Source of the DNA: Oleomonas cavernae
GTDB taxonomy: Bacteria > Pseudomonadota > Alphaproteobacteria > Zavarziniales > Zavarziniaceae
Assembly: GCF_003590945.1 (NCBI RefSeq)
Contig: NZ_QYUK01000011.1
Location: forward strand, 896,001-960,000
Reading direction: 5' to 3'
DNA length: 64,000 nt
A program made the translations under genes and the position numbers. Shown piece by piece: positions 6,086 to 29,165 of this stretch. Each line of letters starts with the position of its first letter. Within the stretch, counting starts at the first letter, position 1. Below the pieces are notes generated by a model that worked only from the letters and a program-made list of their open reading frames with translations, was not told the origin of the DNA and ran no database searches.

Positions 6086-8095
6086 ATGTCGGATTACGAT
6101 ATCGAGAAACTGCGTCACCGTAGCCTGTCGTCCAGCAATACCTTCGAGGGGATGGTCGAGGCCAACCTCAACCGCCGCGGCTTCCTGAAGGGCGCCGGCG
6201 CGGCTGCCGTCACCGCCGCCGCGGGGGGCGCGCTCCTGAACATCGGCGTGCCGACCGACGCCCATGCCGTGACCGGCTTTGTCGCCGTGGCCGAGACCAC
6301 GGCCGACACCGTCACCCTGCCGCCCGGCTATGTCTTCAATGCCCTGCTGACCTGGGGCGATCCGCTGTTCGAGGGCGACGCCCTCTGGGGCAACGGCGCC
6401 GGTGAGATCAACGGCGGCAACCTGACCGCGGCCGAGCAGGCCCGTCGCGTCGGTTTCAACCACGACATGCTGGCCCTGTTCGCCAACCCCTTCGGCTCGC
6501 CCGCCAGCGCCGGCGGCCAGCCGCATGCCGCCTATATCGCGGCCTTCAACAACGAATATACCGAGCCGGTGCGCATGTTCCCCGGCTTCGTCGCCGCGAA
6601 CCCGACGCGCAACCAGATCGACACCGAAATCAATGCCAGCGGCATCACCGTCGCCGGTATCCGCCTGGTCGGCAACGTCTGGGGCCAGGACCGCACCATG
6701 CGCGTGGGCGACGTGCCCGAGGGCGCGCTGGTTGCCCGCCGCATCACCGGGCGCACCCGCTTCCTGCTGGACGGCCCGGCCAAGGACGATCCGCGCCTGT
6801 CCGGCCCGGTGGACGGCACCTTCAGCAACTGCGCCGGCGGCTTCACGCCCTGGGGCACCTATCTGTCGGCCGAAGAGAACTTCAACTTCAACTTCGCCAA
6901 CCTGAGCGGCGTGCCGGCCGGCCAGACCAAAACCACGCACCAGATCTTCGGCATGCCCAACGGCGCCTCGGGCACCCTGTGGGAGCGGGTCTACGATCGC
7001 TTCGACTTGACCAAGATGCCCAACGAAGGCTTCAAGCAGGGCTGGATCCTGGAACTGGACCCCTATGATCCCACCCGGCGCCCGGTGAAGCACACGGCGA
7101 TCGGCCGCGTGAAACACGAGTGCGCCACGGTCGTGGTGCAATATCCCGCGGGCCAGACCAAGGGCAAGGTCGCACTCTATTCCGGCGACGACGAGCGCTT
7201 CGACTATGTCTACAAGTTCGTCACCGACGGCACCTTCGATCGCGAAAACCCGCGCGCCAAGGCCCACTTCTCGCTGCTGTCGGCCGGCACGCTCTACGTC
7301 GGCAAGTTCAACGCCGACGGCACCGGCCAGTGGCTGCCGGTGACCCATGCCAATGTCGACAGCCTGGCGCCGGGCGCGTTCGCCGATCAGGCCGACATCT
7401 GCATCCGCACCCGCGAAGCGGCCGACGTGCTGGGCGCCACCCCGATGGACCGCCCGGAAGACGTCGAGGCGCCCCATGACCCGCTGACCTTCGCCGGCAC
7501 CGGCAAGGTCTTCATGGTATGCACCAACAACAGCAACCGTGGCGGTTCCGCGACCGCGGCCAACCGCGCCAACGGCACGGTGCGTTCCTCGGCGGTCGAC
7601 GCGGCCAACCCCCGCGCCAACAACCGCACGGGCCATATCGTGCAGATCAACGAAGACGGCAACGATCACACCGCGACCACCTTCACCTGGCAGTTCTACC
7701 TGCTGGCGGGTGATCCCAAGGCGGCGGCCGGGGCGGTCGGCGATGTCAAGGACTCGTTCTTCGGCGACCGCTTCGGCTCGCCCGACAACATCACCTTCGA
7801 CAATCGTGGCCTGCTGTGGATCGCGACCGACGGCAACCCGGCCAGCTATCCCTGCAACGACCAGGTGCTGTGCACGGAAATCGCCGGCAACGGCAAGGTC
7901 CGCGTGAAGCGCTTCCTGGTCGGCCCTGCCGGCTGCGAGATCTGCGGTCCGCTGTTCTCGCCCGATAACACGACCTTCTTCTGCAACGTTCAGCACCCGG
8001 GCGAGAATGTCGCCAGCTCCTTCCCCAACGGCACCGGTCCGCGGCCCAGCATGGTCGCGGTTCGCCGGGCCGACGGCGGCATCGTCGGGACCTGA
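6086..8095 (+). CDS. phoX: PhoX family alkaline phosphatase, copy 1
   Basis: This 669-residue DUF839/PhoX protein belongs to a family of Ca2+- and Fe-dependent phosphomonoesterases. The N-terminus holds a twin-arginine signal (NRRGFLKGAGAAAV, about residues 30-45), so it should be exported folded. The PhoX signature CAGGFTPWGTYLSAEEN spans residues 249-265; the cysteine and the EE pair match iron/calcium ligands in known PhoX. It is followed by a close paralogue at 8267 with clearly more than 70 percent identity by eye. Expected role: releasing phosphate from organic monoesters in the periplasm or outside. Phosphate control is suggested by the upstream Pho-box candidate. Confidence 0.92.
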   Translation: MSDYDIEKLRHRSLSSSNTFEGMVEANLNRRGFLKGAGAAAVTAAAGGALLNIGVPTDAHAVTGFVAVAETTADTVTLPPGYVFNALLTWGDPLFEGDALWGNGAGEINGGNLTAAEQARRVGFNHDMLALFANPFGSPASAGGQPHAAYIAAFNNEYTEPVRMFPGFVAANPTRNQIDTEINASGITVAGIRLVGNVWGQDRTMRVGDVPEGALVARRITGRTRFLLDGPAKDDPRLSGPVDGTFSNCAGGFTPWGTYLSAEENFNFNFANLSGVPAGQTKTTHQIFGMPNGASGTLWERVYDRFDLTKMPNEGFKQGWILELDPYDPTRRPVKHTAIGRVKHECATVVVQYPAGQTKGKVALYSGDDERFDYVYKFVTDGTFDRENPRAKAHFSLLSAGTLYVGKFNADGTGQWLPVTHANVDSLAPGAFADQADICIRTREAADVLGATPMDRPEDVEAPHDPLTFAGTGKVFMVCTNNSNRGGSATAANRANGTVRSSAVDAANPRANNRTGHIVQINEDGNDHTATTFTWQFYLLAGDPKAAAGAVGDVKDSFFGDRFGSPDNITFDNRGLLWIATDGNPASYPCNDQVLCTEIAGNGKVRVKRFLVGPAGCEICGPLFSPDNTTFFCNVQHPGENVASSFPNGTGPRPSMVAVRRADGGIVGT

Positions 8096-8111
8096 GGGAC
8101 TTGACCTAAGC

Positions 8112-8144
8112 GACGGCAGGGCAGGGCAATCCTGCCCTGCCGTC
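8112..8144 (+). terminator. Perfect hairpin between the two phoX genes
   Basis: A 14-base stem (GACGGCAGGGCAGG with its exact complement) and a 5-base loop lie 16 bases after the first phoX stop. There is no T-run, so this may be a 3' stabilizing or attenuating hairpin rather than a full terminator. Confidence 0.6.
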
Positions 8145-8177
8145 AGCGCGGGCGAGCTTCACTAGAGATTTTCCGTT

Positions 8178-8211
8178 CTGTAACCGTAGTGTCGTCAAGC
8201 CGATATGTAAT
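8178..8211 (+). promoter_or_regulatory. Candidate Pho box plus -10, second phoX copy
   Basis: CTGTAAC-CGTA-GTGTCGT has two half-site-like 7-mers with a 4-base spacer (5/7 matches each to CTGTCAT), followed eight bases later by TATGTAAT. It aligns base for base in spacing with the site at 6007-6040. Confidence 0.5.
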
Positions 8212-8266
8212 CCCGATCGCCTGAATCGATGCCCGCCGAGGGAGTCGAGCAACAAGGGGTTGGGAT

Positions 8267-10270
8267 ATGTCCGATTACGATGCCGAGGCTCTGCGCAAGC
8301 GCAGCCTCTCCTCCAGCAATACTTTCGAAGGGATGGTCGACGCCCATCTCAGCCGCCGCGGCTTCCTGGTCGGTGCCGTTGCCGCGACCGCTGCTGCCTC
8401 GTCGGTTCTGACCGTCGGTTTCCCGACGGAAGCCCTGGCCGCGACCGGCTTCGTCGCCGTCGCCGAAACCAAGGCCGACACGATTACCGTCCCGACCGGC
8501 TACGGCTTCAACACGCTGCTGGCCTGGGGCGACCCGCTGTTCTCGGGCGACGCTGCCTGGGGCACCGGCGCCGGCGAAGTGAACGGCACCAACCTGACCG
8601 CCGATCAGCAGGAACGTCGCGTCGGCTTCAACCACGACATGCTGGCCCTGTTCGCCAACCCGATCGGTTCGCCGGCCAGCGCGGGCGGCCAGCCGCACGG
8701 CGCCTATATCGCGGCCTTCAATCAGGAATACACCACCGGCACCGACATGTTCCCCGGCTACAGCGCGGCTTCGGCCTCGCGCAACACCGTGGATGTGGAA
8801 ATCGCCGCCCACGGCATCACCATCGCCGGCATCCGCCTCGTCGGCGGCACCTGGACCCATGACGTCGGCATGCGCGTCGGCGATGTCGCCGAAGGCGCGC
8901 TGGTCGCCCGCCGCATCACCGGCAACACCCGCTTCACCTTGGACGGCCCGGCCAAGGACGATCCCCGCCTGGCGGGTGCCGTCGCCGGCACCTTCAACAA
9001 CTGCGCCGGCGGCTTCACGCCCTGGGGCACCTATCTGTCGGCCGAAGAGAACTTCAACCAGTACTTCGCCAACCTCAGCACCCTGCCGGCCGGCACGACC
9101 AAGGCCAACTACCAGATCCTGGGCATGAGCAACGGCGCCACGTCGCGCCGCTGGGAAAAGTACCACGATCGCTTCGACCTGGCGAAGATGCCCAACGAAG
9201 GCTTCAAGTACGGCTGGATCATCGAGGTCGACCCCTACGACCCGACCCGCCGCCCGGTGAAGCACACCGCCCTGGGCCGCTTCAAGCACGAGTGCGCCAC
9301 CATCGTCGTGCAGTACCCGACGGGTGCCGCCAAGGGCAAGGTCGTGGCCTATTCGGGTGACGACCAGCAGTTCGACTATGTCTACAAGTTCGTCACCGAC
9401 GGCACCTTCGACCGCGAAACCCCGCGCGCCAAGGCCCACTTCTCGCTGCTGTCGGCCGGCACGCTCTACACGGCGAAGTTCAATGCCGATGGCACGGGCG
9501 AGTGGCTGCCGCTCACCCACGCCAATGTCGACAGCAAGGCCGCCGGCGCCTTCGCCGACCAGGCCGACATCTGCATCCGCACCCGCGAAGCCGCGGACGT
9601 GCTGGGCGCCACCCCGATGGACCGCCCGGAAGACGTCGAAGCCCCGCACGATCCGGTGACCTTTGCCGGCACGGGCAAGGTCTTCGTGGTCTGCACCAAC
9701 AACAGCAACCGCGGCGGCTCGGCCACGGCGGCCAATCGCCCGGGCACCGGCACCGTCCGCTCGTCGGCGGCTGATGCGGCCAACCCGCGCAACAACAACC
9801 GCACGGGTCACATCGTGCAGATCACCGAGGACGGCAACGACCACACCTCGACCACCTTCACCTGGTCGCTCTACCTGCTGGCAGGTGACCCGAAGGCGGC
9901 CAGCGGCGCGGTCGGCGATGTCAAGGACACGTTCTTCGGCGACCGTTTCGGCTCGCCCGACAACATCACCTTCGACAACCGCGGCCTGCTGTGGATCGCG
10001 ACCGACGGCAACCCGAACAGCTTCGCCAGCAATGACCAGGTCCTGTGCACGGAAATCGCCGGCAACGGCAAGGTCCGCGTGAAGCGCTTCCTGGTCGGCC
10101 CGTTCGGCTGCGAGGTCTGCGGCCCGCTGTTCTCGCCCGACAACACGACCTTCTTCTGCAACATCCAGCATCCGGGCGAAGACGGCCAGGCCAGCACCTT
10201 CCCGAATGGCCAGAAGCGTCCGGTCATGGTCGCCGTGCGCCGCACCGACGGCGGCATCATCGGGAGCTGA
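8267..10270 (+). CDS. phoX: PhoX family alkaline phosphatase, copy 2
   Basis: The 667-residue paralogue of the preceding gene has the same architecture: Tat signal (SRRGFLVGAVAATAAA), the CAGGFTPWGTYLSAEEN signature from C246, and the same C-terminal end. Differences are scattered over the whole length, so the duplication is not recent. Both copies keep the ligand residues, so both should be active. They may differ in substrate or metal preference; that is inference. It has its own promoter-like region. Confidence 0.92.
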   Translation: MSDYDAEALRKRSLSSSNTFEGMVDAHLSRRGFLVGAVAATAAASSVLTVGFPTEALAATGFVAVAETKADTITVPTGYGFNTLLAWGDPLFSGDAAWGTGAGEVNGTNLTADQQERRVGFNHDMLALFANPIGSPASAGGQPHGAYIAAFNQEYTTGTDMFPGYSAASASRNTVDVEIAAHGITIAGIRLVGGTWTHDVGMRVGDVAEGALVARRITGNTRFTLDGPAKDDPRLAGAVAGTFNNCAGGFTPWGTYLSAEENFNQYFANLSTLPAGTTKANYQILGMSNGATSRRWEKYHDRFDLAKMPNEGFKYGWIIEVDPYDPTRRPVKHTALGRFKHECATIVVQYPTGAAKGKVVAYSGDDQQFDYVYKFVTDGTFDRETPRAKAHFSLLSAGTLYTAKFNADGTGEWLPLTHANVDSKAAGAFADQADICIRTREAADVLGATPMDRPEDVEAPHDPVTFAGTGKVFVVCTNNSNRGGSATAANRPGTGTVRSSAADAANPRNNNRTGHIVQITEDGNDHTSTTFTWSLYLLAGDPKAASGAVGDVKDTFFGDRFGSPDNITFDNRGLLWIATDGNPNSFASNDQVLCTEIAGNGKVRVKRFLVGPFGCEVCGPLFSPDNTTFFCNIQHPGEDGQASTFPNGQKRPVMVAVRRTDGGIIGS

Positions 10271-10489: not shown

Positions 10490-13400
10490 ATGTCGACCGT
10501 CTATCACGACCTCAGTTCCGGCGCCTTGCAGCAGGACTGGAGCAATGCCGGCCAGATCACGGCCAACGACGACTGGTCGGGCGTGCCCAGCATCCAGGGC
10601 TTCCTGGGCGACATCGATGCCGGCAGCCCGACGGCGGTCGACCCGCGCACCCTGACCGGCGCCAGCTCGGGCGCGGTCGACGTGATCGCCAACCAGACCG
10701 CGCCCAACACCCTGAGCAACGGCGGCGTGGCCGAATTCGCCATCACCGACCCGACCATCGCCCTCAACGGCTCGGGCACCGCCGATGCGCCGGCCATCGT
10801 GCTGTATCTCGATGCGACCGGTCAGCAGGATGTCCGCGTCCAGTTCAATGCCCGTGACATCGACGGCTCGGCCGACAATGCCGCGCAGCCCATCGCCGTC
10901 CAGTACCGCATCGGCGACAGCGGCACCTGGACCAATGTCACCGGCGGCTACAATGCCGACGTGACCACGGCGAACACCGCGACCCAGACCACCGCCTTCG
11001 ACGTGACCCTGCCCAGCGACGCCGACGGCCAGTCGCAGATCCAGGTCCGCATCCTGACCACCAATGCGGCCGGCAACGACGAATGGGTCGGCATCGACGA
11101 CATCAACGTCTCCAGCGATCCCCTGACCGGCAGCGACACCACCGTGTCGATCAGTGATGCGACGATCACGGAAAACGATTCGGGCACCCAGACCCTGAAC
11201 TTCACCGTGACGCGCAGCGATGCGGACGGCGCCTTCTCGATCGATTACGACACGACGGACGGCACGGCCGCGGCGGGCAGCGATTATGTCGCCGGCAACG
11301 GCACCCTGAACTTCACCGCCGGCGGCGCCCTGACCCAGCAGGTCTCGATCACCATCAACGGCGACGACGACATCGAGGCGAACGAGACCTTCACGGTCGA
11401 CCTGTCCAACATCATCAACACCACGGGCACGGCGGTCGTCGGCGACGGCACCGCCACCGGCACGATCACCAACGACGATGTCGCCCTGACCCTGATCTCG
11501 ACCATCCAGGGCGCCGGCAGTGCCAGCACCATGGTCGGCCAGACGGTGACGATCGAGGCGATCGTGGTCGGCGACTTCCAGAACGGCGACGCCGACACCG
11601 GCCGCAACCTGAACGGCTTCTACCTCCAGGAAGAAGGCGCCGACTGGGACGCCAACGCGCTGACCTCGGAAGGCATCTTCGTCTTCCAGGGCGCCACCGA
11701 TGTGCAACTGGGCGACCGGGTGCAGGTCACCGGCACGATCAGCGAATATTTCGGCCTGACCGAGTTCACCGCCACCAGCGTCAACGTGGTTGAGGCCGGC
11801 GCGGTTGCCGATGTGCAGGATCTCGCGGTCGAGATCGACCTGCCCGGTGCCGCAGTCACCCTCAACCAGGATGGCGACTATCAGCCCGACCTCGAGGCCT
11901 ATGAGGGCATGCTGGTCAAGCTGCCCGATACCCTGACCATCACCGAGCAGTTCAACCTTGACCGCTTCAATGAGATCAAGCTGGTCGAGGGCGAGCGTCC
12001 GGCCAGCTTCACCCAGGACAACGCCCCCGACCAGGCAGGCTACCAGGCGCATCTGGAAGAACTGGGCAGCCACACCATCACCTATGACGACGGCCTGAAC
12101 ACCCAGAACCAGCCTATCAGCAACCTGGACGGCTTTGCCGGCTACGACACCGACAGCGCCCCGCGCATGGGCGACACCGTGACCGGCCTGACCGGCGTGC
12201 TCGATTACCAGTGGGCCGGTGCCTCGGCCAGCGGTGCCACTTGGCGCATCCGCTCGGTCGAGAACGGCGACAACACTTTCGTCTCCTCGGGTCCCCGCGA
12301 GGACAGCCCGGCCGACACCGGCGGCACGCTCACGGTCTGCAGCCTGAACGTGTTGAATTACTTCGCGACCCTGGACGACGGTTCGATGACCGCCAACGGC
12401 CTGGAGCCGCGCGGCGCCAACGACGCAACCGAATTCACCCGCCAGACCGACAAGCTGATCACCGCGCTGGTGGATATCGACGCCGACCTGTTCAGCCTGG
12501 TCGAACTCGAAAACAACTTCCTCCCCGGTGCCTCGGGCAACTCGCTTGAATACCTGTGCAACCAACTCAATGCCGAGCTGGGCAGCGACATCTATGACTG
12601 GGTGAACCCCGGCACGCAGTTCGTCGGCGGCGACGCGATCGCGCCGGGCTTCCTCTACAAGACGGATACTCTGCAGGTTTCTACCGGCACCACTGTCGAA
12701 ACCCTGAGCGACAGCGACCTGCCCGGTCTCGGTCTCGGCAACCTGCTGACCGAGAGCACCATCGGCCATGTTTTTGACGGCGAAAACACCAGCCGTCACT
12801 CGCTGGCGGTGACCTTCACCGAGCTTGCGACGGGCGGCGAGTTCACCGCCGTTGCCAACCACCTGAAGTCCAAGAGCGGGGCCGGCACCGGCGAGGATGC
12901 CGACCAGTTGGACGGCCAGGGCGGCTGGTCGCAGCAGCGCGAACTGGCGGCAGAGGCCCTGGCCGCCTGGATCGCCAGCGATCCCACCAACTCTGGCGAT
13001 GACGATGTCCTGCTGCTGGGCGATTTCAACGCCTATGCCATGGAAGATGCCATCGCCATTCTCGAGGCGGCGGGTTATTTCAACCAGGCCCAGCCGGGCG
13101 ACCATTCCTATGTCTTCGACGGCCAGACCGGCACGCTCGACTACGTCTTCGCCAACGCCGACCTGGACGGCCAGATCACCGGCGCCACCAAGTGGCACAT
13201 CAACTCCGACGAAGCCGACGCGCTCGACTACAACCTCGACTTCGGCCGCGACCCGGCGATCTACGATGGCACCAGCCCGGTGCGCGTCTCCGACCATGAC
13301 CCGGTGATCGTCGGCATTGACCTGGCCGAATACACCATCCCGACCGCCGGCAGCGACGCCATCACGGCGACCACGGGCAACGACACGATCAACGCCCTGG

Positions 13401-14331
13401 GCGGCAACGACATTGTCCATGCCCTGGACGGCGACGACATCCTGACCGGCGGCCTGGGCGCCGACCAACTGTTCGGCGAGGGCGGCAACGACACCTTCGT
13501 CATCGTGCCGACGCCCTATGACGGCGCCGACCTCTATGACGGCGGCACGGCAGCGACACGCTGGACTTCAGCGCGGCGACCAGCCGGGTCACCGTGGTCC
13601 TGCCCGACAGCGGCCCGCTCGGCCTGGGCGCTGACACCATCACCAGCATCGAGAACCTGATCGGTGGCAGCGGCAACGACGTGTTCCGCGGCAACGCGGT
13701 GGCCAATTCCCTGCGTGGCAACGCCGGCGCGGATGCGCTCGTCGGCAACGACGGCGACGACCTGCTGCTGGGCGATGCCGGCGATGACCGGCTGGACGGC
13801 GGCCTGGGGGCCGACGAGGTGTCCGGCGGTGCCGACCACGACACGCTCTATGGTCGCCAGGGCAACGACCTGCTCGACGGCGGCGACGGCGATGACCTGC
13901 TCTACGGTGCGCAGGACAACGACGAGCTGGTCGGCGGCGCGGGCGTTGACACGCTCGATGGCAACTCCGGCAACGACGTGCTGGTGGGCGGCCTCGGTGC
14001 CGACCTCCTGAAGGGCGGCCAGGGCCTCGACCAGTTCGTCTTCGATACGTTCGACAGCATCGATACGATCAGCGACTTCGCGGTTCGCGGCAGCGTTCAG
14101 GACCAGATCGTCCTGGCCAAGTCCAGCTTCACGGGCTTTGCCGGCGCCACAGCGCAGGACCTGTTCACCGGCGGCTTCCTGCGCACCCAGGCGGCCGGTA
14201 CCACGACCGACCTGCAGGTCGACCTGGACGGCGGCGGCGACGACTACGTCACCTTCGCCAACTTCAATGGCAGCCTGACCGATGCGGTGATCGCCAGCCA
14301 CACCCTGCTGGTCGACAGCTTCCTGGTCTGA
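10490..14331 (+). CDS. Extracellular RTX nuclease/phosphatase (frameshifted as sequenced)
   Basis: Repaired length is 1280 residues. Domains in order: N-terminal beta domain (about 1-205), Calx-beta (about 212-325), OB-like domain (about 333-440), endonuclease/exonuclease/phosphatase domain (about 610-950), then glycine-rich RTX calcium repeats (GGNDxLxGxxGxD, from about 965) and a type I secretion-like tail. The EEP catalytic set is visible: VELEN (E672/E674), GDFNAY (from G844) and SDHD (934-937). This resembles ExeM/NucH-type secreted DNases. It lacks an N-terminal signal, as expected for type I secretion. The frame breaks near 13549; adding one G restores GTGSDTLDF and continuity. Next to the phoX pair it could free nucleotides from extracellular DNA. 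Confidence 0.85.
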
Positions 14332-14375: not shown

Positions 14376-15467
14376 TCAGGCGGCGAGGCGGGCGAGCAGG
14401 GCCAGCATCACCGATGCCTCGGGCATGGGCGTGATCGCGTCCAGCCGCTCGGGCACCATGGCGGCGACGTCGGGGTGCGAGGCGGTGCCGGGCGCGCCCA
14501 GCGGCCCGCGGAAGCCATGGTCGGCCCAGGCGATGTTCTGCAGCTCGCTGCTGGTCAGCGCTTCGATCAGCCCGTCGGCGCCGGGCTTCAGGCTCAGCAG
14601 CGGATGGGCGGAATAGACCGTCGGTACCGGGTAGAGCGCCACCGGCCGGTTGGCGCTTTTGGCGACCCGCACCCAGCGTTCGGGATCGGCGATGATCCAT
14701 TCGACCAGTTGGTTCTCATAGCCGACAACCATGGGATAGGCGCCCGGCCCGCCTGCCAGATAGTCCTCGAACAGGCTGCCCGAGGAATGGGACTTGTAGC
14801 CCATGCGGCGGAACAGGCTCTCGACGTCGCCGGCCACGCTGCCCAGCACGGCAGGCGTCGCCACATCCCCAGCCAGCAGGTTGGCGGCCAGGCCCGCGAA
14901 CATGAAGCCCGAATTGGACAGGTTGGGATCGGTCGCCGTGATCCGTGCCTTGCCGAACAGCTCGCCGACGCCCAGCGAGGCCCAGGTGGCATCGGCCAGC
15001 ACCGCCTTGAGGAAGGCCAGCAGGTCGATCGTGGCGTGACCGGCGGCGTCCCGTGCCGCCGTGCCGGCCTTGATCAGCCCGTCGACCACGTTGGACCAGG
15101 AATAGACCACGATGGGCGAATTGAGCACCACCTGCGACCGCCGCACCTGGACATTGTTCTCGCGGGCGATCTCGACCATCACCGAGGAGGACGGCCACAG
15201 GAAATCCGGGCTCTGGGCCAGCAATTCCGGGGCCCGGACCATTTCGACCGAGCCGGCCTGGCGCCCGTTCAGGGCAAAGCCGGCGCCGGCCAGGGCGTCG
15301 ATCGTCCTGGGGTTGGCCAGGAACGCCTTTTTCTCGCCGCCGACGAAACCGGTGAGCAGCGCGGGGTCGCGAAACAGTGGCGTGCCGCGCAGGTAGAGAT
15401 AGCCGCCGGTTGCCGCCGCGCTGGCCCCCACCAGGCCCAGGCCGAAGGCGCGCCGTGTCATGCTCAT
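14376..15467 (-). CDS. Membrane-anchored periplasmic solute-binding-like protein
   Basis: 363 residues. The N-terminus (TRRAFGLGLVGASAAATGGYLYL) is a Tat-like or uncleaved signal anchor. The rest resembles type 2 periplasmic binding proteins of the extracellular solute-binding class, with a conserved-looking SNSGFMFAGL loop. It overlaps the previous gene by 4 bases (ATGA) and is the last gene of a four-gene operon with TelA, a VWA protein and an XpaC-like protein. No permease or ATPase gene is nearby, so it may sense or scaffold rather than transport. Ligand unknown. Confidence 0.72.
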   Translation of the reverse strand: MSMTRRAFGLGLVGASAAATGGYLYLRGTPLFRDPALLTGFVGGEKKAFLANPRTIDALAGAGFALNGRQAGSVEMVRAPELLAQSPDFLWPSSSVMVEIARENNVQVRRSQVVLNSPIVVYSWSNVVDGLIKAGTAARDAAGHATIDLLAFLKAVLADATWASLGVGELFGKARITATDPNLSNSGFMFAGLAANLLAGDVATPAVLGSVAGDVESLFRRMGYKSHSSGSLFEDYLAGGPGAYPMVVGYENQLVEWIIADPERWVRVAKSANRPVALYPVPTVYSAHPLLSLKPGADGLIEALTSSELQNIAWADHGFRGPLGAPGTASHPDVAAMVPERLDAITPMPEASVMLALLARLAA

Positions 15468-16087
15468 CGCGCGGTCCCCATGTCTTCCTTCAGCGAGGAT
15501 TCGATCAGCCGCAGCTCGACATCGAGATCGGCCAGGTCGGTGTCGAGCAGCGAGTCCGAATAATGGCTGAAGGCATCTTCGAGCTTGGCGATGACCGCCT
15601 CGGTCTGGGTGATCCTGGCAGGGTCGGGCAGGCGCTTTTGTTCCAGCACGCCATAGCGTTCGGCAACGTCGCCGGCGGCCGGCAGGTAGTAGGTCAGGAA
15701 CCGCTGCACGGTGCTCAGGCGGTTGGCGTCCTGCTCGACCCCGGCGACGATCGACCGCGCGGTCGTGGCCAGCCGGCCGACCTGGGCCTTCACCGTGTCC
15801 TTGCGGATGCCCCGGGCGATTTCGCCCAGGCGCTCGATCTGGGGCGCGGCGTCGTTCAGCACCTTGCGCGCCAGGTCCAGCCGGCCGCGGGCGACGTTGG
15901 AGACATCGATGCCCTCGAACACCCGGCGGGGGGCAAAGGCGAAGACCAGCCCGGCAAAGGCGAGGGCGCCCACGCCCAGGGCGACGGCAAGCGGCACCTG
16001 TACGACAAAGACCAGCCCCGGGATCAGGATCGCGCTGACCAGGCCGGCGATGAGCCAATTGCGGTCGTCTGTGAACATTCCACCCAT
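15464..16087 (-). CDS. XpaC-like membrane protein (5-bromo-4-chloroindolyl phosphate hydrolysis family)
   Basis: 207 residues. Two adjacent transmembrane helices occupy residues 11-50 (WLIAGLVSAILIPGLVFVVQ and VALGVGALAFAGLVFAF). A long helical cytosolic part follows that looks coiled-coil (RLDLARKVLNDAAPQIERLG...). This two-helix plus coiled-coil layout matches XpaC-type proteins, which are commonly encoded beside TelA. The family name comes from a screening phenotype and does not establish an enzyme activity. It starts 8 bases after the VWA gene and overlaps the next gene. Confidence 0.72.
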   Translation of the reverse strand: MGGMFTDDRNWLIAGLVSAILIPGLVFVVQVPLAVALGVGALAFAGLVFAFAPRRVFEGIDVSNVARGRLDLARKVLNDAAPQIERLGEIARGIRKDTVKAQVGRLATTARSIVAGVEQDANRLSTVQRFLTYYLPAAGDVAERYGVLEQKRLPDPARITQTEAVIAKLEDAFSHYSDSLLDTDLADLDVELRLIESSLKEDMGTAR

Positions 16088-16095
16088 CCAGGCCG

Positions 16096-17667
16096 TCAGT
16101 TATAGCCGCGTGCGGCCCTGAAGGCACCGGTGAGATCCTTGGCCCCGTCGAAAACCCTGGCCCCGGTCGCCGCTGCCAGGGTGTCGAGCTGGCCGCGGTC
16201 GGCGTCGCCGAAGGTGATGCCGAAGATGGGGATGCGCTGGTCGCCCGGATCCCGGCTGGCCAGGAAGCTGTCGGGGTCGCCCTCGCTGCGGCCGTCGGTC
16301 ATGATCACGATCGCCGGCAGATAGTCGTCGGTGGCGAGCAGGGGCCTCATCCGGGTGTAGGCCTCGCGGACACAGGCATACATGTCGGTGCCGCCGCCCA
16401 CCCGGTGGCGGGTGGCCTGGGCCAGCAGGCTGGCCTGATCGGCGGCCGTGCCGCTGCCGTTCCACACGGCGGCAACGTCGCCGCTGAAGGGAATGACGAA
16501 GATGCGGTCCTTGGGCGACCATTGCACCAGCACCTCCGCGGCCCGTTCGGGCGTGAACAGGAAGCTGATGGCCTGGCGCAGCGCGCTTTCGCCCTCGCCC
16601 TGCATGCTGCCCGAGAAATCCAGGCACAGGGCGGTCAGCGACGGCCGGCGCAAGGCCTCCTGGTACAGCGTCAGCGCCTTGTGGATGACCGCCGGCTCGG
16701 GCATCTGCACCGCGGTGACGAGGCGGGCGGGATCGAAGTTCCAATCGGGCTCCGGCTTGGCCTGGGCGGCCCGGCCCAGAGCGATGCGCCGCCCGGTCTG
16801 GGCGATCTGCGCCTGGATTGGCGAGGTGAGCAGATGGGCCTGGAGTTCGACGAAGAAATCCTCGACCTCCTTGCCCCGGCCGCGGCCGAGGAAGCCCAGG
16901 GGCGAGTCGGCGATCGAGACGCCGTCGCCGGGATAGACCGCCCACAGGGGTTCGCGGCCCTTGGCGCGCAGGCGGTCGTTGGTCTCCTTCAGCACCGCCT
17001 CGTAATTCCACATGGCATCATAGGTGGCACCCTTGTCGAAGGCGTCGACATAGAGCTCGGCGAGCCAGCCGCTGGAACCCGAAGACCGCTCCACCCCGTG
17101 CAGCAGGCGGGTGACCTGGTCCAGGGTGGCGGGATCGTCGAGGTCGCCGGCTTCCAGCACCGGCTTGCCCCGCGCCGCCGCCAGCATGGCGAGATAGGCG
17201 CTGGCGCCCGAATTGGACTGGGTGGCAGAGGTCATGAGGAAGCGCAGGTCGCCGGCGTCGACGGCCTTGAGGATATCGGCCGTGCTGACCGGGCCCTTGG
17301 TCCAGCCCAGGGCCTCGGCCTTGGCCTTGCGCACGCCCAGCACCACCGGGTTCTGCGAGATCGATTGCAGGTGGGTGACCCGGCGCTGGGTATCGAACAG
17401 GTCGATCCAGATGCTCGAGGCGGGCCAGACCGCGTCGACCGTCGCCTCCTGCCCGGGCCGCAGCCCCAGGCCGATATCGAGCGAACCCAGGTAGGTTACG
17501 CTGCACGCGATACCCTTATCGTCGCAGAAGGCCTTGACGATCGGCTCCAGCACCTGGTTCTCGGAACCCGCGACGATCTTGAATTCGAACTTGGGGCTGT
17601 CGTCGCAGGCATTGAGGAGAAAGGCGGCCGAGAGCAGGGCGGCGAGGCGGAGGATCAGCATGGGCAT
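16096..17667 (-). CDS. Lipoprotein with solute-binding and VWA domains
   Basis: 523 residues. A lipobox (SAAFLLNAC, C21) marks an exported lipoprotein. Residues about 28-320 form a periplasmic binding-protein domain (VAGSENQVLEPIVKAF; SATQSNSGASAYL loop). Residues about 340-515 form a von Willebrand A domain with a MIDAS: DFSGSM at 350-355, GGGTDMYA and MTDGRS. VWA domains bind partners through a metal ion. The fusion suggests a surface or periplasmic assembly factor that reads a ligand. It sits 4 bases after TelA, so all four genes are probably one transcript. Confidence 0.85.
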   Translation of the reverse strand: MPMLILRLAALLSAAFLLNACDDSPKFEFKIVAGSENQVLEPIVKAFCDDKGIACSVTYLGSLDIGLGLRPGQEATVDAVWPASSIWIDLFDTQRRVTHLQSISQNPVVLGVRKAKAEALGWTKGPVSTADILKAVDAGDLRFLMTSATQSNSGASAYLAMLAAARGKPVLEAGDLDDPATLDQVTRLLHGVERSSGSSGWLAELYVDAFDKGATYDAMWNYEAVLKETNDRLRAKGREPLWAVYPGDGVSIADSPLGFLGRGRGKEVEDFFVELQAHLLTSPIQAQIAQTGRRIALGRAAQAKPEPDWNFDPARLVTAVQMPEPAVIHKALTLYQEALRRPSLTALCLDFSGSMQGEGESALRQAISFLFTPERAAEVLVQWSPKDRIFVIPFSGDVAAVWNGSGTAADQASLLAQATRHRVGGGTDMYACVREAYTRMRPLLATDDYLPAIVIMTDGRSEGDPDSFLASRDPGDQRIPIFGITFGDADRGQLDTLAAATGARVFDGAKDLTGAFRAARGYN

Positions 17668-17671
17668 GAGG

Positions 17672-18751
17672 TCAGGCCTTTGCTGCGCTCAGGGTGCGTT
17701 GGAGATCGCTGGTCATCGCTTCCATCCGCTGTTCCGCCTGGGTGCGTTTTTCCCGTCCCTCGGCCTGGACCCTCAGGACGCCGCCGATGGTATCGATCAG
17801 GTCGCGATTGGTCTGTTCCAGGGTTTCGATATCGATGATGCCGCGCTGCGCCTGCTGCTCGATGGCGATGGCCTGGTCCTTCATCATGGCCGAGGTCTGC
17901 TTCAGCATGGTGTTGGTGGCGTCGGTGACCGTCTTCTGGAGGTCCAGCGCCTCCTTCTGGCGGGTCAGGCCCAGCAGCAGGATCATTTTCTGCTTCCACA
18001 CCGGGACGGTCAGTTGCGCCGTGGCTTGCAGGTTTTCGATCAGGGTCTCGTCGCCGGCCTGAACGATGCGGATCTGGGGCAGTTGCTGGATGCCGATCTG
18101 GCGTGCTTGCTGGAGGTAGAAGACGCGCTTTTCCAGCCGGTCCAGCGCCTGGACCGCGTCCTGGTAACCCTGGGCCTCCAACAGGCCGTCGCCGGCCGCT
18201 GTGGCACTGTCGGCCGCCGCCTTCAGGCGGAGCAGTTCGCCGGCGCGGTACTGTTCGCCGAAAGCCTTGCCGGCCTGGATATACGCCTCGAGCTCGCTGA
18301 TCGAGCGGCGGGTTTCCTCGTGCAGGTCGTCGAGCACGGCGATATCGCGTTTCAGGCGGTCCTTGTGGCTGTCCAGGGTGATGACGATGCCGTCGATCTG
18401 GCTCGCGACATCCTCGAACTGGGCGGCGAAGCGGCGGATCCGCGCCTGGGCCGAGGAGAACAACCGCCCCAGGAACCCCAGGGACTGGAGGCCCGCCGCA
18501 TCCAGGCCCTTGGCCTTTTCGATGATGTCGACCAGCAGCCGGCCGGTATCGCCCAGCTCGCGATTGCGGGTCTGGCCCAGGATCTTGTCGGCATAGGCGG
18601 TGACGGTGCGTTGCGCGCCCTCGCCGAAACTGGCCAGCAGCGCCCGGTCGCCAAGATCGATGCCCCGCCCGATGACCGCCACCCGGCCCGGATCGGCGGC
18701 GACGGCGGGCAGGGCAGTGACCGGTGCAAGGCTATCGCTGGTCGTCGTCAT
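17672..18751 (-). CDS. telA: TelA family toxic anion resistance protein
   Basis: The 359-residue, helix-rich cytosolic protein matches the TelA (PF05816) core: LGFLGRLFSSAQARIRRF, LDDLHEETRRSISELEAYI, and the TVPVWKQKMILLLGLTRQKEALDLQKTV motif near the C-terminal third. TelA was named for tellurite resistance and is linked to envelope stress responses. I use the ATG at 18751 (MTTTSDS) because the upstream extension to 18811 is unlike the family. It is the first gene of a four-gene operon reading leftwards. Confidence 0.9.
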   Translation of the reverse strand: MTTTSDSLAPVTALPAVAADPGRVAVIGRGIDLGDRALLASFGEGAQRTVTAYADKILGQTRNRELGDTGRLLVDIIEKAKGLDAAGLQSLGFLGRLFSSAQARIRRFAAQFEDVASQIDGIVITLDSHKDRLKRDIAVLDDLHEETRRSISELEAYIQAGKAFGEQYRAGELLRLKAAADSATAAGDGLLEAQGYQDAVQALDRLEKRVFYLQQARQIGIQQLPQIRIVQAGDETLIENLQATAQLTVPVWKQKMILLLGLTRQKEALDLQKTVTDATNTMLKQTSAMMKDQAIAIEQQAQRGIIDIETLEQTNRDLIDTIGGVLRVQAEGREKRTQAEQRMEAMTSDLQRTLSAAKA

Positions 18752-18893
18752 GGCTGGTGCCCCCTTGGCGCACAGGATGGCGCTTCCGCCCCGGCATTCA
18801 ATCCCCTTCATGTGACGGCTGTGCGACGGTTGACGAGGGGCTGCCCGGCGACCCTATCTTGTGCCCTCGGCCTTGTCGCTTAAGGAATCGATC

Positions 18894-19598
18894 GTGTCAG
18901 ACCTCTCCGCTTTTCCGATCACCACCCGTTGGCCGGCCCAGCAGCCGGACCGGCTGCAGCTCTATTCCCTGCCCACGCCCAACGGCGTCAAGGTTTCGAT
19001 CATGCTCGAGGAACTGGGCCTACCCTATGAGCCGCACATGATCGATATCGGCCGGAACGAGACCTGGACCCCTGAATTCCTCGCGCTCAATCCCAACGGC
19101 AAGATCCCCGCCATCATCGATCCCGACGGCCCGGGCGAACAGCCGATCGCCCTGTTCGAATCCGGCGCCATCCTGCTCTATCTCGCCGAGAAGACCGGCC
19201 GGTTCCTGCCGGCCGACCCGGTGCTGCGCTACGAGACGATCCAGTGGGTATTCTTCCAGATGGCGGCGGTCGGGCCGATGTTCGGCCAGGTCGGCTTTTT
19301 CCACAAATTCGCCGGGCGGGACTACGAGGACAAGCGCCCGCTGGAACGCTATGTCGCCGAGTCGAAGCGCCTGCTCGGCGTCCTCGAAACACGGCTGGCC
19401 GGGCGGACCTGGATCATGGGCGAGGCCTATACCATCGCCGATATCTCGCTGCTGGGCTGGGTGCGCAACCTGATCGGTTTCTACGACGCGGGCGACCTGG
19501 TCGATTTCGCCAGCCTCGTCCAGGTTCCGGCCTGGCTGGAACGCGGCCTGGCCCGCCCCGCCGTGCAGCGCGGCTTGAGCATTCCGCTCAGGCCTTGA
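18894..19598 (+). CDS. Glutathione S-transferase (YghU/YfcG-like)
   Basis: 234 residues starting at GTG 18894, with AAGGA upstream. The thioredoxin-fold half (LQLYSLPTPNGVKVSIMLEELGLPYEPHMIDI; NPNGKIPAIID; LFESGAILLYLAEKTG) and the helical half (GEAYTIADISLLGWV) are both complete. The TPNGxK active-site stretch is that of the nu-class/YghU-like group, which has disulfide-bond reductase activity. The 3' end overlaps the convergent Hsp70 gene by 11 bases. Confidence 0.9.
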   Translation: MSDLSAFPITTRWPAQQPDRLQLYSLPTPNGVKVSIMLEELGLPYEPHMIDIGRNETWTPEFLALNPNGKIPAIIDPDGPGEQPIALFESGAILLYLAEKTGRFLPADPVLRYETIQWVFFQMAAVGPMFGQVGFFHKFAGRDYEDKRPLERYVAESKRLLGVLETRLAGRTWIMGEAYTIADISLLGWVRNLIGFYDAGDLVDFASLVQVPAWLERGLARPAVQRGLSIPLRP

Positions 19599-20859
19599 GC
19601 GCACCATTGCCGAACCGGCGTTCGGCATCGATCGCCAGGCCCAGGCCCACGCTGCCGAAGACGTCGCCCTCCACCGGGGCGGCGTTGGGCAGGTGGCCCA
19701 GGATGCGCTGGCGAATATCGGGAATGGCGGTCGAGCCGCCGGTCAGGAAGACCGACTGGATCTCGTCCGGGGTTACCCCCGCCTGGGCCAGGCAGCGGTC
19801 GATGCCGGCGACGATGGCCGCCGTCTCCCGGCGCAGGGCGTCGACCAGGTCGCGGCGGGTCAGGACCAGTTCCACAGGCGGGTGGAAGGGCAGGTGCAGC
19901 ATCGCCGTCGCCTGCTGCGACAGGGTGATCTTCGCGGCCTCGACCTCGGTCGCCAGCCGGTGGCCGTTGCGCTCGACCAGGACCTCGATCAGCCGGTCGA
20001 TCAGCGCCGGCTGGTCGACGCCGGAGCGGATCGAGCGGAAATAATTGAGGGTCGAGGCGGTATAGAGCGACGGAATGCGGTGCCAGGTCGCCAGGTCATG
20101 GAACAGGCGGATCGGCATGGGCAGCTTCTTGGTGCCGATCGTGGCATTGAAGCCCAGTTCGGGCATCACATGGGCGATCGACAGCAGGCGGTCGAAGTCG
20201 GTACCGCCGACATGCACGCCGCTGCGCCCCAGGATGTCGTCCGCCCGCTCGGCCTTGCGCGACCGCTCGGGCGACAGGCGGGTCACGGCGAAGTCCGAGG
20301 TGCCGCCGCCCAGGTCGACGATCAGGGCCAGTTCCTCGCGCGCCAGCGACTGTTCGTAGTCGAGCGCCGCGGCCACCGGCTCGAATTGCAGCTCGATATG
20401 GCGGAAGCCCTGGGCCCGGGCGATCTCGACCAGTTCCTGCTCGGCCTGGCGGTCGGCCGCGTCGTCATCGTCGACGAAGCGGACCGGGCGACCCAGCACG
20501 ACGCTGTCGATCTCGGCATCCAGGTGCTGCTCTGCGCTCGATTTCAGGTGCCTGAGCAGGATGCCGATGATGTCCCTGATGGCCATCGGCCGGTTGCGGA
20601 TCTGCGTCGTCTCGGCGATCAGCGACGACCCCAGCACGCTTTTCAGCGCGCGCAGCAGCCGGCCCTCGGTGCCGTCGATATAGGCCCTGATGCCGTCGCG
20701 GCCGAAGCGCACCGTCTTGTCCTCGTAATCGAAGAAGATCGAACTGGGCAGGGTCACGCTGCCACCCTCGAGCGGGCACAGGACATAGCGTCCCCCTACG
20801 CTGAAGCCGAGGGTGGAATTCGACGTGCCGAAATCGAGGCCACAGTACCGAGGGGGCAT
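19588..20859 (-). CDS. Hsp70 family protein (YegD-like)
   Basis: 423 residues from the ATG at 20859 (MPPRYCGLDFGTSNSTLGF). ATP-binding signatures of the actin/Hsp70 fold are clear: DFGTSNST at the start, LIVDLGGGTSDFAVTRL in the middle and FLTGGSTAIPDIRQRI near the end. There is no substrate-binding beta domain or lid, so it is an ATPase-only, YegD-type protein rather than DnaK. Client and role are unknown. The upstream in-frame extension to 20928 is Pro/Arg-rich and rejected. Confidence 0.88.
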   Translation of the reverse strand: MPPRYCGLDFGTSNSTLGFSVGGRYVLCPLEGGSVTLPSSIFFDYEDKTVRFGRDGIRAYIDGTEGRLLRALKSVLGSSLIAETTQIRNRPMAIRDIIGILLRHLKSSAEQHLDAEIDSVVLGRPVRFVDDDDAADRQAEQELVEIARAQGFRHIELQFEPVAAALDYEQSLAREELALIVDLGGGTSDFAVTRLSPERSRKAERADDILGRSGVHVGGTDFDRLLSIAHVMPELGFNATIGTKKLPMPIRLFHDLATWHRIPSLYTASTLNYFRSIRSGVDQPALIDRLIEVLVERNGHRLATEVEAAKITLSQQATAMLHLPFHPPVELVLTRRDLVDALRRETAAIVAGIDRCLAQAGVTPDEIQSVFLTGGSTAIPDIRQRILGHLPNAAPVEGDVFGSVGLGLAIDAERRFGNGALKA

Positions 20860-20952
20860 TACGGGTCCAGAGGGAGGGGGCGGCTTGCCGCGGGGCGGTA
20901 ACATGCCTGTCGCCCTCCGCCGGGGCAAGGCCGCTCGCGCCGGCGGCTGCCC

Positions 20953-22326
20953 CTAAAACCGCAGTTCGAGGCCGAGATAGGCGCCGTCGTTGTCGCGCCA
21001 CAGGCCGAACTGGGTGTCGGCATCGCCCGCGAACAGATAGACCGCGCCTTTCACGGTCAGGTCGTCGGTAAGCAGGTAGTCGAAGCCAACGAGGCCGGCG
21101 GCGTCGCCCTCATAGACGTTCGCAGCACCCTTGCCGTAGAGCTGCAGCCAGCGATCGACGATCAGGCGCAACTCCCACAGTGCATAGTTGGCATAGGGGC
21201 GGCCGAAGCGCGACACCAGGATGGGATCCGTGGTGTCCGCCTTTCTCGTGCGCACGTCGCCGGCATATTCGAGCGTGGCGCGGGCCTCCTCGACGGCAAG
21301 CCACCGCTCCAGTGGCACCAGGCGGAACTGCGCGCCCAGGAGGTAGCGCAAGAAGTCGTCGTCCTTATCGGAGGGCGTGTGCTGCCAGACTGCGTCGGCA
21401 TAGAGCTTGTAGCGCTCGCGGGCGATGACGATGCCGCCCAGGGCCGAGGCGGTGTCGAGCAATTCCTGGTCGCCGACGATGGTGGTGGCTGCGCCCGGCA
21501 CCGGCGGCGGCAGGAGGGCACGTCCCCGCAACACGGGATAGGCCGCGGCGCCGACATGGGCCCCGAGGTAGAAGTCGAAGGCCTGCCGCCGTCCGGTATA
21601 GGTGAGGAGCGCGCCCCAGTCCTCAGGCTCGAGCGAGCGGAACGCGGTGTCGACGCGCAGGTCGACGGGGCCGGGGATGGCCGGCAGCGCGGACAGGTCG
21701 AAGAAGGACGTGTTGCCGGCGCCGGTCGACCAGCGGCTCTCGTCGTCGCCGCGGCGGGGCCGTTCGTCCGCCGGCAGCACGGAAAGGGAGAGGCGATCGT
21801 CGCCCAGATAAACGCTGGCGGTCGCTTGCCACAGCCCCATGGAGAAGTCGTGCAGGGGATTGGCGTAGTCGTGCGGCTCGAAGCGGTTAGCGGGGGAATA
21901 GAGGTCGCCATAGCCGAGTTTCAGCGGCGCCTTGCCTACCACCAGGTCGAAACCGGTGCCGCGCCAGCGGACGTTGGCCCGGGTCAAGTCGAAATTGGCC
22001 GCTTCGTCGGCCTGGAAGGCCTCGCCCCAGGTGCGGGCCATGAGGTCGGGCGTGGACCCGGCCGCATAGGCCCCGAGATCGAAGCTGATGCTGGGGTCGG
22101 GCGTGTAGCTCGCCTCCAGCGACAGGCGGCTCCAGGCGATGACGTCGTCGCGCTGTCTTACGGTTTGCGCGGGATCGTCGAAGAAGGCATCGCCGAAAGC
22201 TTCGAGCGTCCCGGTCCAGCGCAGGGCACCGGCCTCGCCGGCACAGGCCTCGCCGATCCCCAGGAAGGCCAAGGCGCCGAGCAGCGGGGCGATCCGGCGA
22301 CAGGCATGGCTAGGCTTGCAGGTCAT
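20953..22326 (-). CDS. Outer-membrane beta-barrel protein of RND cluster
   Basis: 457 residues with a signal peptide (PLLGALAFLGIGEACAGEAG). The mature part is built of alternating beta strands (WTGTLEAFGDAFFDD, ISFDLGAYAAG, AYLGLELRF) and ends in the C-terminal phenylalanine typical of Bam-inserted barrels. It follows the RND exporter by 14 bases and is the last gene of that operon, so it may be the outer-membrane partner. I do not recognise a named family. Confidence 0.7.
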   Translation of the reverse strand: MTCKPSHACRRIAPLLGALAFLGIGEACAGEAGALRWTGTLEAFGDAFFDDPAQTVRQRDDVIAWSRLSLEASYTPDPSISFDLGAYAAGSTPDLMARTWGEAFQADEAANFDLTRANVRWRGTGFDLVVGKAPLKLGYGDLYSPANRFEPHDYANPLHDFSMGLWQATASVYLGDDRLSLSVLPADERPRRGDDESRWSTGAGNTSFFDLSALPAIPGPVDLRVDTAFRSLEPEDWGALLTYTGRRQAFDFYLGAHVGAAAYPVLRGRALLPPPVPGAATTIVGDQELLDTASALGGIVIARERYKLYADAVWQHTPSDKDDDFLRYLLGAQFRLVPLERWLAVEEARATLEYAGDVRTRKADTTDPILVSRFGRPYANYALWELRLIVDRWLQLYGKGAANVYEGDAAGLVGFDYLLTDDLTVKGAVYLFAGDADTQFGLWRDNDGAYLGLELRF

Positions 22327-22340
22327 CGCGGGCGATTCCT

Positions 22341-24640
22341 TCAGGCTGCGCGGACGGCGGCGCGCCGTTGCGCGACCCGTCCGGCGACGTCGAGCAGCAG
22401 CGGCGTGACCACTACGTCGGTCACCCAGGCACACCACAGGCCGATGGCGCCCAGCAGGCCGAAATGCCAGACCACGCTGAATTCCGAGAAGGCGAAGGCG
22501 AGGAAGGCGAGCGAGACGCAGGTCACGGTCAGCGTGACGGCCAAGGCCTGTTCCTCGAGGAGCGGCATGTCCGTCTCGCCGGTGGTGCGCAGCATGTGGG
22601 CGTTGATCATGTGGATGGTGTCGTCGACGGCGATGCCGAAGCACACCATCGCCGCGACCCCGGTGCCCGGGTTGAACGGCAGGTCCAGGATGGCGATGAC
22701 GGCGAACACGAAGGCGCCGGGCAGCACGTTGGGGATGAGCGAGATCAGGCCCACCGCGAGGGAGCGGAATGCCGCCGCCAGGAACAGGGCGGTCACCACC
22801 AGCAGGGCCACGAAGCTGATGAACTGGCTTTCGACCAGGGATTCGGCACTGCGGTTGACCAGGATGTTCTGCCCGGTCACCTCGAGGCTGAGGCCGCTGC
22901 CGGCGAACAGCGTCGCCGCCCGTGACGTGAGCAATTCTAGGCGGCGGTTGATCTCGCGGCTGTCGAAATAGGGGTGGCGGACGAGGATCAGGGCCTGCTG
23001 CCGCTCGTCGGCGAGGAAATGGCGCAGTTCCCCCAGGTCATGGAACAGCAGGTATTGCTCGGTCGCCTCCAGCGCGGGCGGCGGCGATGCCGCCGCGGCG
23101 CCGGTGAACGCCCGGTGCGTGAGGGTTACATAGTCGGCGATCGACACGGCCGAACCGAACAGGCCTTTCGCCTCGGCCTCGAGCGCAGCCAGGCGCTCCA
23201 GGCGGTCGGGTTCGAGCAGGGAGCCCGAGTTGGTTTCCACCACGGCATAGAACAGGTTGAGGCCGGTCATCCGCGCCTGGAAGAAGTCGATGTCCTGCAC
23301 GACCTGGGCCTGCCTGTTGATCATGGCGATGGGATCGATCGACGGCGTCAGGCCGATGATGGTCGCGAGCGACAGGCCGGTCAGGGCGAAAACCGCGGCG
23401 AGCACGGGCTTGCGGCGCCGCGGCGTCGCCACCAGCGGGCGGGTCGCCCGCTCGAGGAACTGCCCCAGGCGGCGCGAGCGCTGGCCGATCGAGGCGATCC
23501 TGGCCGTGGGGCGCGGAAACCACCAGGCAAGCAGCAGCGGCACGAGCACGATGGTGATCACCAGGTTGATCATCATGCCGATGGTGGTCGCCAGCGCGAA
23601 ATCCTGGATGAAGGGAATGGCGCCGATGACATTGGAGCCGAAGCCGATGGCGGTGGTGGTGCCGGTCAGCACGCTGGCGGTCAGCAGCCGGCGCGAGGTG
23701 AGGGCCAGCGCCCGTCCCGGTCGCCGCTTTCGCTCAAGGCGCGGAAATAGCCGGCGATGAGGTAACAATCCTCTGTCGCGCCGATGCCGATGAGGAGCAC
23801 GGGCAAGGCGCCGGTTAGCTGGTTCACCGGCAGGCCCAGCCAGCCCAGGCAGCCGAAGGTCCAGACGATGCTGATCAGGGCGGTGCACAGCGGGATCAGC
23901 GTGGCGAGGAGCGAGCGGAAGGCGATGGCCACGGTGCCGATCAGCAGCGCGATGGAGATCGGCGTCAGCAGGGCGACATCGCCCAGGATGAGGCGGCGCG
24001 ATTCGACATAGGTGCGCGGCGGCCCCAACTGGTAGAGACGCGCAAAGTCACCCTGGTAGGGCGCCATGGCCTGCGCGACGAAATCGAAGGCCTGGCGGGG
24101 CAACTGCCCGTCCTCCCAGGTCGCCTTCACGTAGACGGCGATCGCCGCGGTCTGCCCGTCGGTGGCGAGATAGGTGCCGCCGACGAAGGGGTTGGCGCGG
24201 GCCCGCGCCAGTGCCGCGGCAAGGCCGGCGGCGTCCTGCGGGACGCTGGCCATGACCGGCGTGGTGTCGACGGCATCGCCGTTCGCCTGGGCGTGGCCGA
24301 CGTCGAAGACGCTGTTGACGTGGTCGACCAGCGGGGAATTGCCCAGGGCACGGCGAAATTCGCGCAGCCGGGTCAGCTTGGGCGTGGTGAACAGGGCGTC
24401 GTCCGCGACCACGACCAGGACCACATAGTCCGACCCGAAGCGCGCCGTCGTCTCGGCGTAGAAGGCATGATCGGGCAGGGTGGGATCGACCAGGCTGCTG
24501 TAGCTGACATCCAGGGACACCCGGCCGAGCCCGGTGGCAGTGACGAGGGTGACCAGGGCGAGCAGCGCGAAGACCAGGCGGCGGCGATGAAACAGCCACT
24601 CGAAGAGGCTGGTCGCGCGCACCGCGGTCGGCGTGCTCAT
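22341..24640 (-). CDS. RND/MMPL-type exporter, HAE3-like (frameshifted as sequenced)
   Basis: Repaired length is 766 residues with the RND layout: N-terminal helix, periplasmic loop, helices 2-6, second loop and helices 8-12. Key segments are GALPVLLIGIGATEDCYLIAGYF before the break and GVAAMVCFGIAVDDTIHMINAH after it, the helix 4/10 equivalents with acidic proton-relay residues. The frame breaks near 23711; one extra G in a GGG run restores GDRDGALALTSRRLL. It overlaps the LolA-like gene (ATGA) and precedes a beta-barrel gene. HAE3 exporters often move lipidic molecules; the substrate is unknown. Confidence 0.86.
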
Positions 24641-25968: not shown

Positions 25969-26167
25969 CGAGACCGCCCCCACCAGCACTCCCCCCGGGC
26001 ATAGTTTTGCGGCGATCGGAATATACGCTCAAGCCAACTCGTCACCGTTATGGGCGTGGCTTGCGGTCGCAGCGCTTGGCCGGAATCAACGGTCGGCGGC
26101 GGCGCGAAAGCGAGTCGGGGAAAAGTTTTTCATATGGGCCGGGCGCGGGCAAGGCGGCGCCGGCGGT

Positions 26168-26677: not shown

Positions 26678-26703
26678 GCCCGTCGTCTCCCGCCATGACA
26701 AAG

Positions 26704-26738
26704 AAAAACCCCGCCACCTCGGAGAGGGACGGGGTTTT
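26704..26738 (-). terminator. Terminator downstream of cold-shock gene
   Basis: On the minus strand AAAACCCCG pairs with CGGGGTTTT and is followed by TCTTT. It sits between the cold-shock gene and pncC. A second GC-rich inverted repeat (GCCGGCGG / CCGCCGGC) lies at about 26832-26861, right after the cold-shock stop. Confidence 0.75.
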
Positions 26739-26868
26739 CCTGGTCGGGTGTCAAGTCACACCAGATGCTGCCGCATCATTCTTAACCTATCGCCAGTACA
26801 TCCGTGGTCGATCGGTGGAATGATGCTGGCCGCCGGCGGTCGGTCAAACCAAGCCGCCGGCGTTGCAA

Positions 26869-29073: not shown

Positions 29074-29102
29074 GACGAACCTCCCCGCGACGCTTCTTGT
29101 TG

Positions 29103-29123: not shown

Positions 29124-29165
29124 TCTTGAGCGATCAGCGGGGAAAGTCAAGCACCAGGGACGGCG

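Follow-up and report, generated by a model that had tools for sequence, protein, structure and literature searches.

A TelA/XpaC operon with two homologous binding proteins in Oleomonas cavernae and its predicted control by PhoB

Results

Gene organization of the operon

The window, a stretch of 64,000 nucleotides from the contig NZ_QYUK01000011.1 of Oleomonas cavernae, carries a four-gene unit on the minus strand at 14376-18751. The order of transcription is telA, the gene of a lipoprotein joining a binding domain to a VWA domain (SBP-VWA), xpaC, and the gene of a second binding protein. Spacing within the operon is 4 and then 8 bases, and the final pair, xpaC and the second binding protein, overlaps by 4. 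An earlier note, made from the sequence alone, had taken the four genes, with gaps or overlaps of no more than 8 bases, as one unit, and its coordinates and strand are confirmed. The genes are as follows.

17672..18751, minus strand: telA, operon gene 1, cytosolic TelA-family protein of 359 aa (PF05816, E 1.4e-91)
16096..17667, minus strand: SBP-VWA lipoprotein of 523 aa (SBP_bac_11, 1.7e-10, residues 32-260; VWA, 2e-7, residues 347-506)
15464..16087, minus strand: xpaC (XpaC / Halogen_Hydrol, PF10112), 207 aa (PF10112, E 2.9e-29)
14376..15467, minus strand: second binding protein of 363 aa, with an N-terminal helical signal or anchor bearing an RR motif

The TelA protein reaches 307.4 bits against PF05816, for which the cut-off is 30, and model positions 5-331 of 332, that is the whole domain, are covered; hydropathy gives no transmembrane segment. 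XpaC passes the curated cut-off of PF10112 (102.9 bits against 29.8) and consists of an N-terminal hydrophobic hairpin, with one segment at 11-29 and another apolar stretch reaching residue ~50, followed by a helical cytosolic part. Pfam and NCBIfam scans of the second binding protein returned zero matches; its RR motif is invariant among the alphaproteobacterial relatives. No permease or ABC ATPase gene was found in the operon or directly beside it, so that the cognate permease and ATPase that mark an ABC importer are missing there. The earlier description of binding-type proteins standing without permease or ATPase is thereby borne out, as none adjoins the set and none is conserved beside it.

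Domains and predicted folds

The lipoprotein possesses the lipobox LNAC, whose C21 is invariant in 25 relatives. Its type II periplasmic binding domain extends over residues ~25-340 and its MIDAS-bearing VWA domain over ~341-523. All 12 diverse relatives compared, down to 30% identity, have the MIDAS residues D350, S352, S354, T427 and D458. Lipobox, Pfam matches and invariant MIDAS residues all agree with the earlier proposal of an exported lipoprotein that joins a binding domain to a MIDAS VWA domain. In structure comparison of the model (pLDDT 87.4), sulfate-binding folds are nearest to the binding domain, with Z 27 over 288 residues, followed by the hexose-phosphate-binding VcA0625 and AfuA with Z 24; the VWA domain matches VWA folds with Z 21.

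For the second binding protein, a sequence search against solved structures gave no significant match. An alignment of 21 relatives gave a confident model (pLDDT 86.8), which matches type II periplasmic binding proteins along its whole length, the thiamine-, sulfate- and ferric-binding proteins scoring Z ~20-22 (~22 over 271 residues). The fold thus backs the earlier view of this protein as a second, anchored binding protein. Alignment of its profile with that of the lipoprotein binding domain gives an hhalign probability of 99.2 (E 3.6e-19), and the motifs SNSG, SSG, YE and YP are common to both. The two binding proteins are therefore homologous type II periplasmic-binding folds, and, since they share these motifs, the same kind of pocket may be present twice in the module. 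Likeness of the modelled folds does not point to a particular ligand, as thiamine, ferric and polyamine binders score almost as high.

Occurrence and conservation of the gene set

The second binding protein was used to scan 84,980 species genomes, and the 80 relatives kept are all Alphaproteobacteria. In nearly all loci of these 80 genome contigs that are not cut short by a contig end, telA, SBP-VWA, xpaC and the second binding protein follow each other in identical order. The exceptions are one locus in which no telA was found (L071), one in which no xpaC was found (L078), and one in which telA is apparently split (L014).

Profiles of the binding protein and of the SBP-VWA fusion were searched against an even sample of 398 Pseudomonadota genomes. 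Both occur in the same 9 of the 398 genomes and are adjacent every time. TelA is present in all 9, compared with 75 of the 398 overall; the chance of such agreement is ~2e-7 by a hand calculation from the counts that ignores kinship. The co-occurrence claim of the earlier note had been set as a test beforehand, and it survived. In 8 of the 9 genomes TelA lies inside the cluster. In the exception, G321 (locus L117), the receptor and XpaC genes stand without TelA in cis, and the sole TelA of the genome is of the stand-alone type and in trans on a different contig. A cluster of Deinococcus (L004) likewise contains the binding protein, the SBP-VWA fusion and an XpaC-like protein without TelA in cis. 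Therefore, the steadier core of the set consists of the two binding proteins and the XpaC-like membrane protein, and a signal to TelA would not be obligatory in cis. Evidence of a conserved fifth gene was not obtained: across 15 representative loci, flanking families are shared by 3 at most, all of these from Rhizobiaceae.

According to gene order, the clusters can be divided into two versions. Version A, in Alphaproteobacteria, has the order telA-VWA-xpaC-SBP. Version B, in Sphaerotilus, Variovorax, Nonomuraea and the genomes G196 and G350, has the order SBP-telA-VWA-xpaC-like. The set is also found in Betaproteobacteria, Actinomycetota and Deinococcota, where the genes are ordered differently and TelA is of a distant subfamily; the occurrences outside Pseudomonadota all come from plasmid records. 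In the TelA tree, very long branches part the two versions, and stand-alone TelA genes, several of them members of TelA-XpaC pairs, are interspersed in both. The XpaC-like proteins of version B have no PF10112 match; with an hhalign probability of 63% against XpaC, they are tentatively regarded as its homologues. The association of the receptor pair with two distant TelA subfamilies argues that the receptor and TelA/XpaC functions belong together. On plasmid 2 of Variovorax sp. SRS16 (L006), a large plasmid, the module has flotillin/OB-fold genes on one side and a Wadjet (JetA) defence gene on the other.

Pho boxes upstream of telA

The 300 bases 5' of telA were scanned for common stress promoters. 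A Pho box with at most 3 mismatches occurs in 49 of 76 upstream regions, against 0.55 expected from shuffles. EcfG, RpoE, RpoH and LexA motifs were not clearly above shuffles. When the Pho matrix was trained leaving out the tested genus, and ~15,000-34,000 positions were scored per locus, the site 5' of telA came out on top of its locus for 54 of the 75 relatives, among them Zavarzinia, Bradyrhizobium, Rhizobium, Mesorhizobium, Devosia, Bosea and Caulobacter; in the other 21 the upstream site was not the best in the locus. Several boxes match the consensus CTGTCAT-N4-CTGTCAT at 13 or 14 of 14 positions.

A matrix derived from the operon promoters alone scores 22.7 at the pstS promoter of the window's genome, where the repeats are in tandem. 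Of 21 stand-alone telA promoters, a single one reaches 8 or more with the same matrix. Because it finds the pstS promoter and not the stand-alone telA promoters, the motif is very probably a PhoB box and is tied to the operon version that has the receptors. The corresponding site of the window is degenerate:

18812..18829, minus strand: Pho-box-like site CCGTCGC-ACAG-CCGTCAC, beginning 78 bases 5' of telA

It ranks 13 of 127,966 positions with a matrix from other genera and agrees with 9 of the 14 consensus positions, at a distance to telA similar to that of the best sites of the relatives. This site alone would not convince. Among version-B clusters, that of G196 (L116) likewise has the best site of its locus upstream, and the matrix finds no Pho site in those of Variovorax, Nonomuraea, Deinococcus and G350.

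With a Pho box conserved upstream in most relatives, the receptor-bearing operon is predicted to be a member of the PhoB regulon, and phosphate starvation is its likely context. In the literature searched, no relevant report of TelA in the Pho regulon and no expression data were found.

Phosphate-scavenging neighbors

Beside the operon, on the opposite strand, lie genes of phosphate scavenging.

6086..8095, plus strand: phoX copy 1, alkaline phosphatase (PF05787, 3.6e-122)
8267..10270, plus strand: phoX copy 2 (PF05787, 1.3e-131)
10490..13660, plus strand: ExeM/NucH extracellular endonuclease, convergent with the operon (NF033681, 4.8e-156, score 520.8, cut-off 300)
13594..14331, plus strand: RTX C-terminal part of the ExeM gene, in another frame (PF00353, 8.6e-24)

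The first phoX copy has a weak Pho-like site, rank 18, 79 bases upstream. In Sphaerotilus, phoX is itself gene 1 of the operon, with 4 bases between it and the binding-protein gene, and an ExeM/NucH DNase follows; a Pho box, rank 1 in the locus, lies 80 bases 5' of phoX. Thus, two lineages tie the module to phosphate scavenging by neighborhood. As a general rule this neighborhood was rejected: among the loci studied none but those of the window and Sphaerotilus show it, and it is supportive, not conserved. The phoX and ExeM genes near the module presumably resemble eddAB of P. aeruginosa.

Some further observations concern the flanks of the operon. The two phoX copies (6086-10270, plus strand) are both complete and stand in tandem. 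The frame break near 13590 in the ExeM/NucH gene (10490-14331, plus strand) reflects either a sequencing error or a decayed gene. On the other side, beyond a divergent GST gene, a stand-alone HSP70-like ATPase-domain protein of 446 aa is encoded at 19588-20928 on the minus strand (PF00012, 4.2e-24).

Discussion

TelA and XpaC are widespread and are induced by many stresses, and their function has been open for decades. The predicted regulation through Pho boxes is the main new result of this analysis; it provides the first concrete biological context, phosphate starvation, for the orphan set of TelA, XpaC and receptors. Of the earlier interpretation, the co-occurrence of the genes stands, while the Pho boxes, the homology of the receptors and the occasional absence of TelA from the cluster had been missed. 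The span of the set from cytosol to periplasm that it had suggested is consistent with the predicted protein locations, and the set may, as it also proposed, sense a ligand.

It appears an even call that the operon encodes a PhoB-controlled, permease-less envelope module, which holds or senses a ligand, phosphate-like or a phosphoester, and acts by way of XpaC/TelA; this is the reading preferred here. What the analysis shows is the gene set and its co-occurrence, the folds, the receptor homology, the intact MIDAS and the conserved Pho boxes of the relatives; the ligand, the docking, the direction of the signal and the output of the module are inferred and would be as follows. Judging from their families, TelA would be cytosolic, XpaC an inner-membrane protein, and the lipoprotein and the anchored receptor periplasmic. 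When phosphate is scarce, PhoB would turn on all four proteins. The periplasmic ligand that the lipoprotein and the anchored receptor then hold or sense would be a phosphate-like oxyanion or a phosphoester, and the VWA domain might dock a partner via its MIDAS metal when ligand or metal is present. The membrane hairpin of XpaC could relay this state to TelA at the cytosolic face, where TelA would support or reshape the stressed membrane and limit the entry of toxic phosphate-like anions. A bolder form of the proposal, considered unlikely, is a transmembrane signalling route free of kinase, permease and sigma factor, in which the two homologous periplasmic receptors, joined by a VWA/MIDAS contact, report phosphate or phosphoester status via XpaC to TelA, as an undescribed branch of the PhoB response.

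Part of the same evidence could be read as PhoB-induced protection from toxic oxyanions (tellurite, arsenate, selenite), with receptors that trap them before entry through phosphate transporters and TelA/XpaC engaged in repair, without any signalling. TelA-family genes are annotated as tellurium resistance on IncP plasmids (klaB); tellurite enters E. coli mainly via the phosphate transporter PitA, as cited in PMC12348037; and the modelled binding domain of the lipoprotein is closest to sulfate-binding folds. This explanation is nevertheless rather improbable, for stoichiometric binding is a weak way to defend by trapping, and the IncP klaABC genes include no binding or VWA protein, KlaA being a short TelA relative and KlaC membrane-like. 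Similarly doubtful is a general envelope-stress or phage-exclusion system of the Ter/TelA type, in which the Pho box merely reflects membrane remodelling in phosphate-starved cells. TelA and XpaC do respond to cell-envelope stress: in the Lactococcus CesSR study XpaC was up 10.3 fold and telA1 up 3.4 fold (PMC3139573), and a mutant of lmo1967 (telA) in Listeria had raised sensitivity to nisin and tellurite (PMC12791056). TelA is also counted among the Ter components proposed to build sub-membrane structures that exclude phage (PMC7824862). However, stand-alone telA genes are without the Pho box, which ties the box to the version with receptors; PADLOC gave no defence-system match beyond a marginal 12.8-bit match of TelA to ZorA; and viral contigs held no homologue at the sensitivity used, on which ground a phage origin was also rejected.

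Type II periplasmic binding proteins usually deliver to ABC permeases, and the modelled folds are typical of them, so the two proteins might serve a permease encoded elsewhere (e.g. Pst or a phosphoester importer), with VWA, TelA and XpaC as assembly or quality-control partners. Transporter-like genes do occur near the cluster in L117, but across genera the genes beside the set include no conserved permease, both receptors are anchored, one of them fused to a VWA domain, and the perfect linkage is between the two receptors and with TelA rather than with a transporter. This alternative is thus thought very unlikely. For the preferred module, the envelope-stress responses of TelA and XpaC, together with tellurite entry via PitA, fit a role in envelope protection, perhaps against toxic phosphate analogues, at a time when phosphate uptake is induced. 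The module would thereby offer a rationale that links toxic-oxyanion resistance with phosphate stress, as tellurite uses a phosphate transporter. The receptors and the Pho box also give a short list of ligands and culturable hosts: Rhizobium, Bradyrhizobium and Caulobacter.

Comparison with known systems

No experimental account of the four-gene set was found in the literature searched; the neighborhood itself may have been noted earlier, most likely in the comparative work of Anantharaman et al. (2012) on Ter/TelA systems.

The same two families form the TelA-XpaC pair of Firmicutes (lmo1967-lmo1966 in Listeria, llmg_1116-llmg_1115 in Lactococcus, yaaN and xpaC in B. subtilis). As in the operon, the genes are adjacent, and they are stress-responsive, whereas the plain pair is without a binding protein or VWA lipoprotein and, among the proteobacterial controls examined, without a Pho box. 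A second TelA-XpaC pair of this plain kind, without receptors or Pho box, is present in the window's genome at C11:3292115-3293692 (L119).

The IncP kilA operon, klaA-klaB-klaC, also resembles the operon, as KlaA and KlaB are of the TelA family and a membrane protein comes last among its three genes. However, it contains no receptor, VWA domain or lipoprotein, and the plasmid TelAs form a separate branch of the tree. KlaA (L089:3114-3887) was recognized as a short TelA-family protein (PF05816, 1.7e-10); hence klaA-klaB is a TelA pair. KlaC was considered as a homologue of the second binding protein and rejected, since it is membrane-like and shows no resemblance by inspection.

TerB, TerC and TerD genes were not recognized within the operon. 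Ter-dependent stress systems (TerB/C/D/F, TelA) share with it the combination of TelA and a VWA protein, there as sub-membrane components (PMC7824862), and have no receptors; in the operon, by contrast, the VWA domain is joined to a binding domain and belongs to an exported lipoprotein. PhoX and ExeM/NucH are associated with the module as neighbors in the window and, in Sphaerotilus, within or beside the operon. Both are enzymes, whereas the module contains no predicted enzyme.
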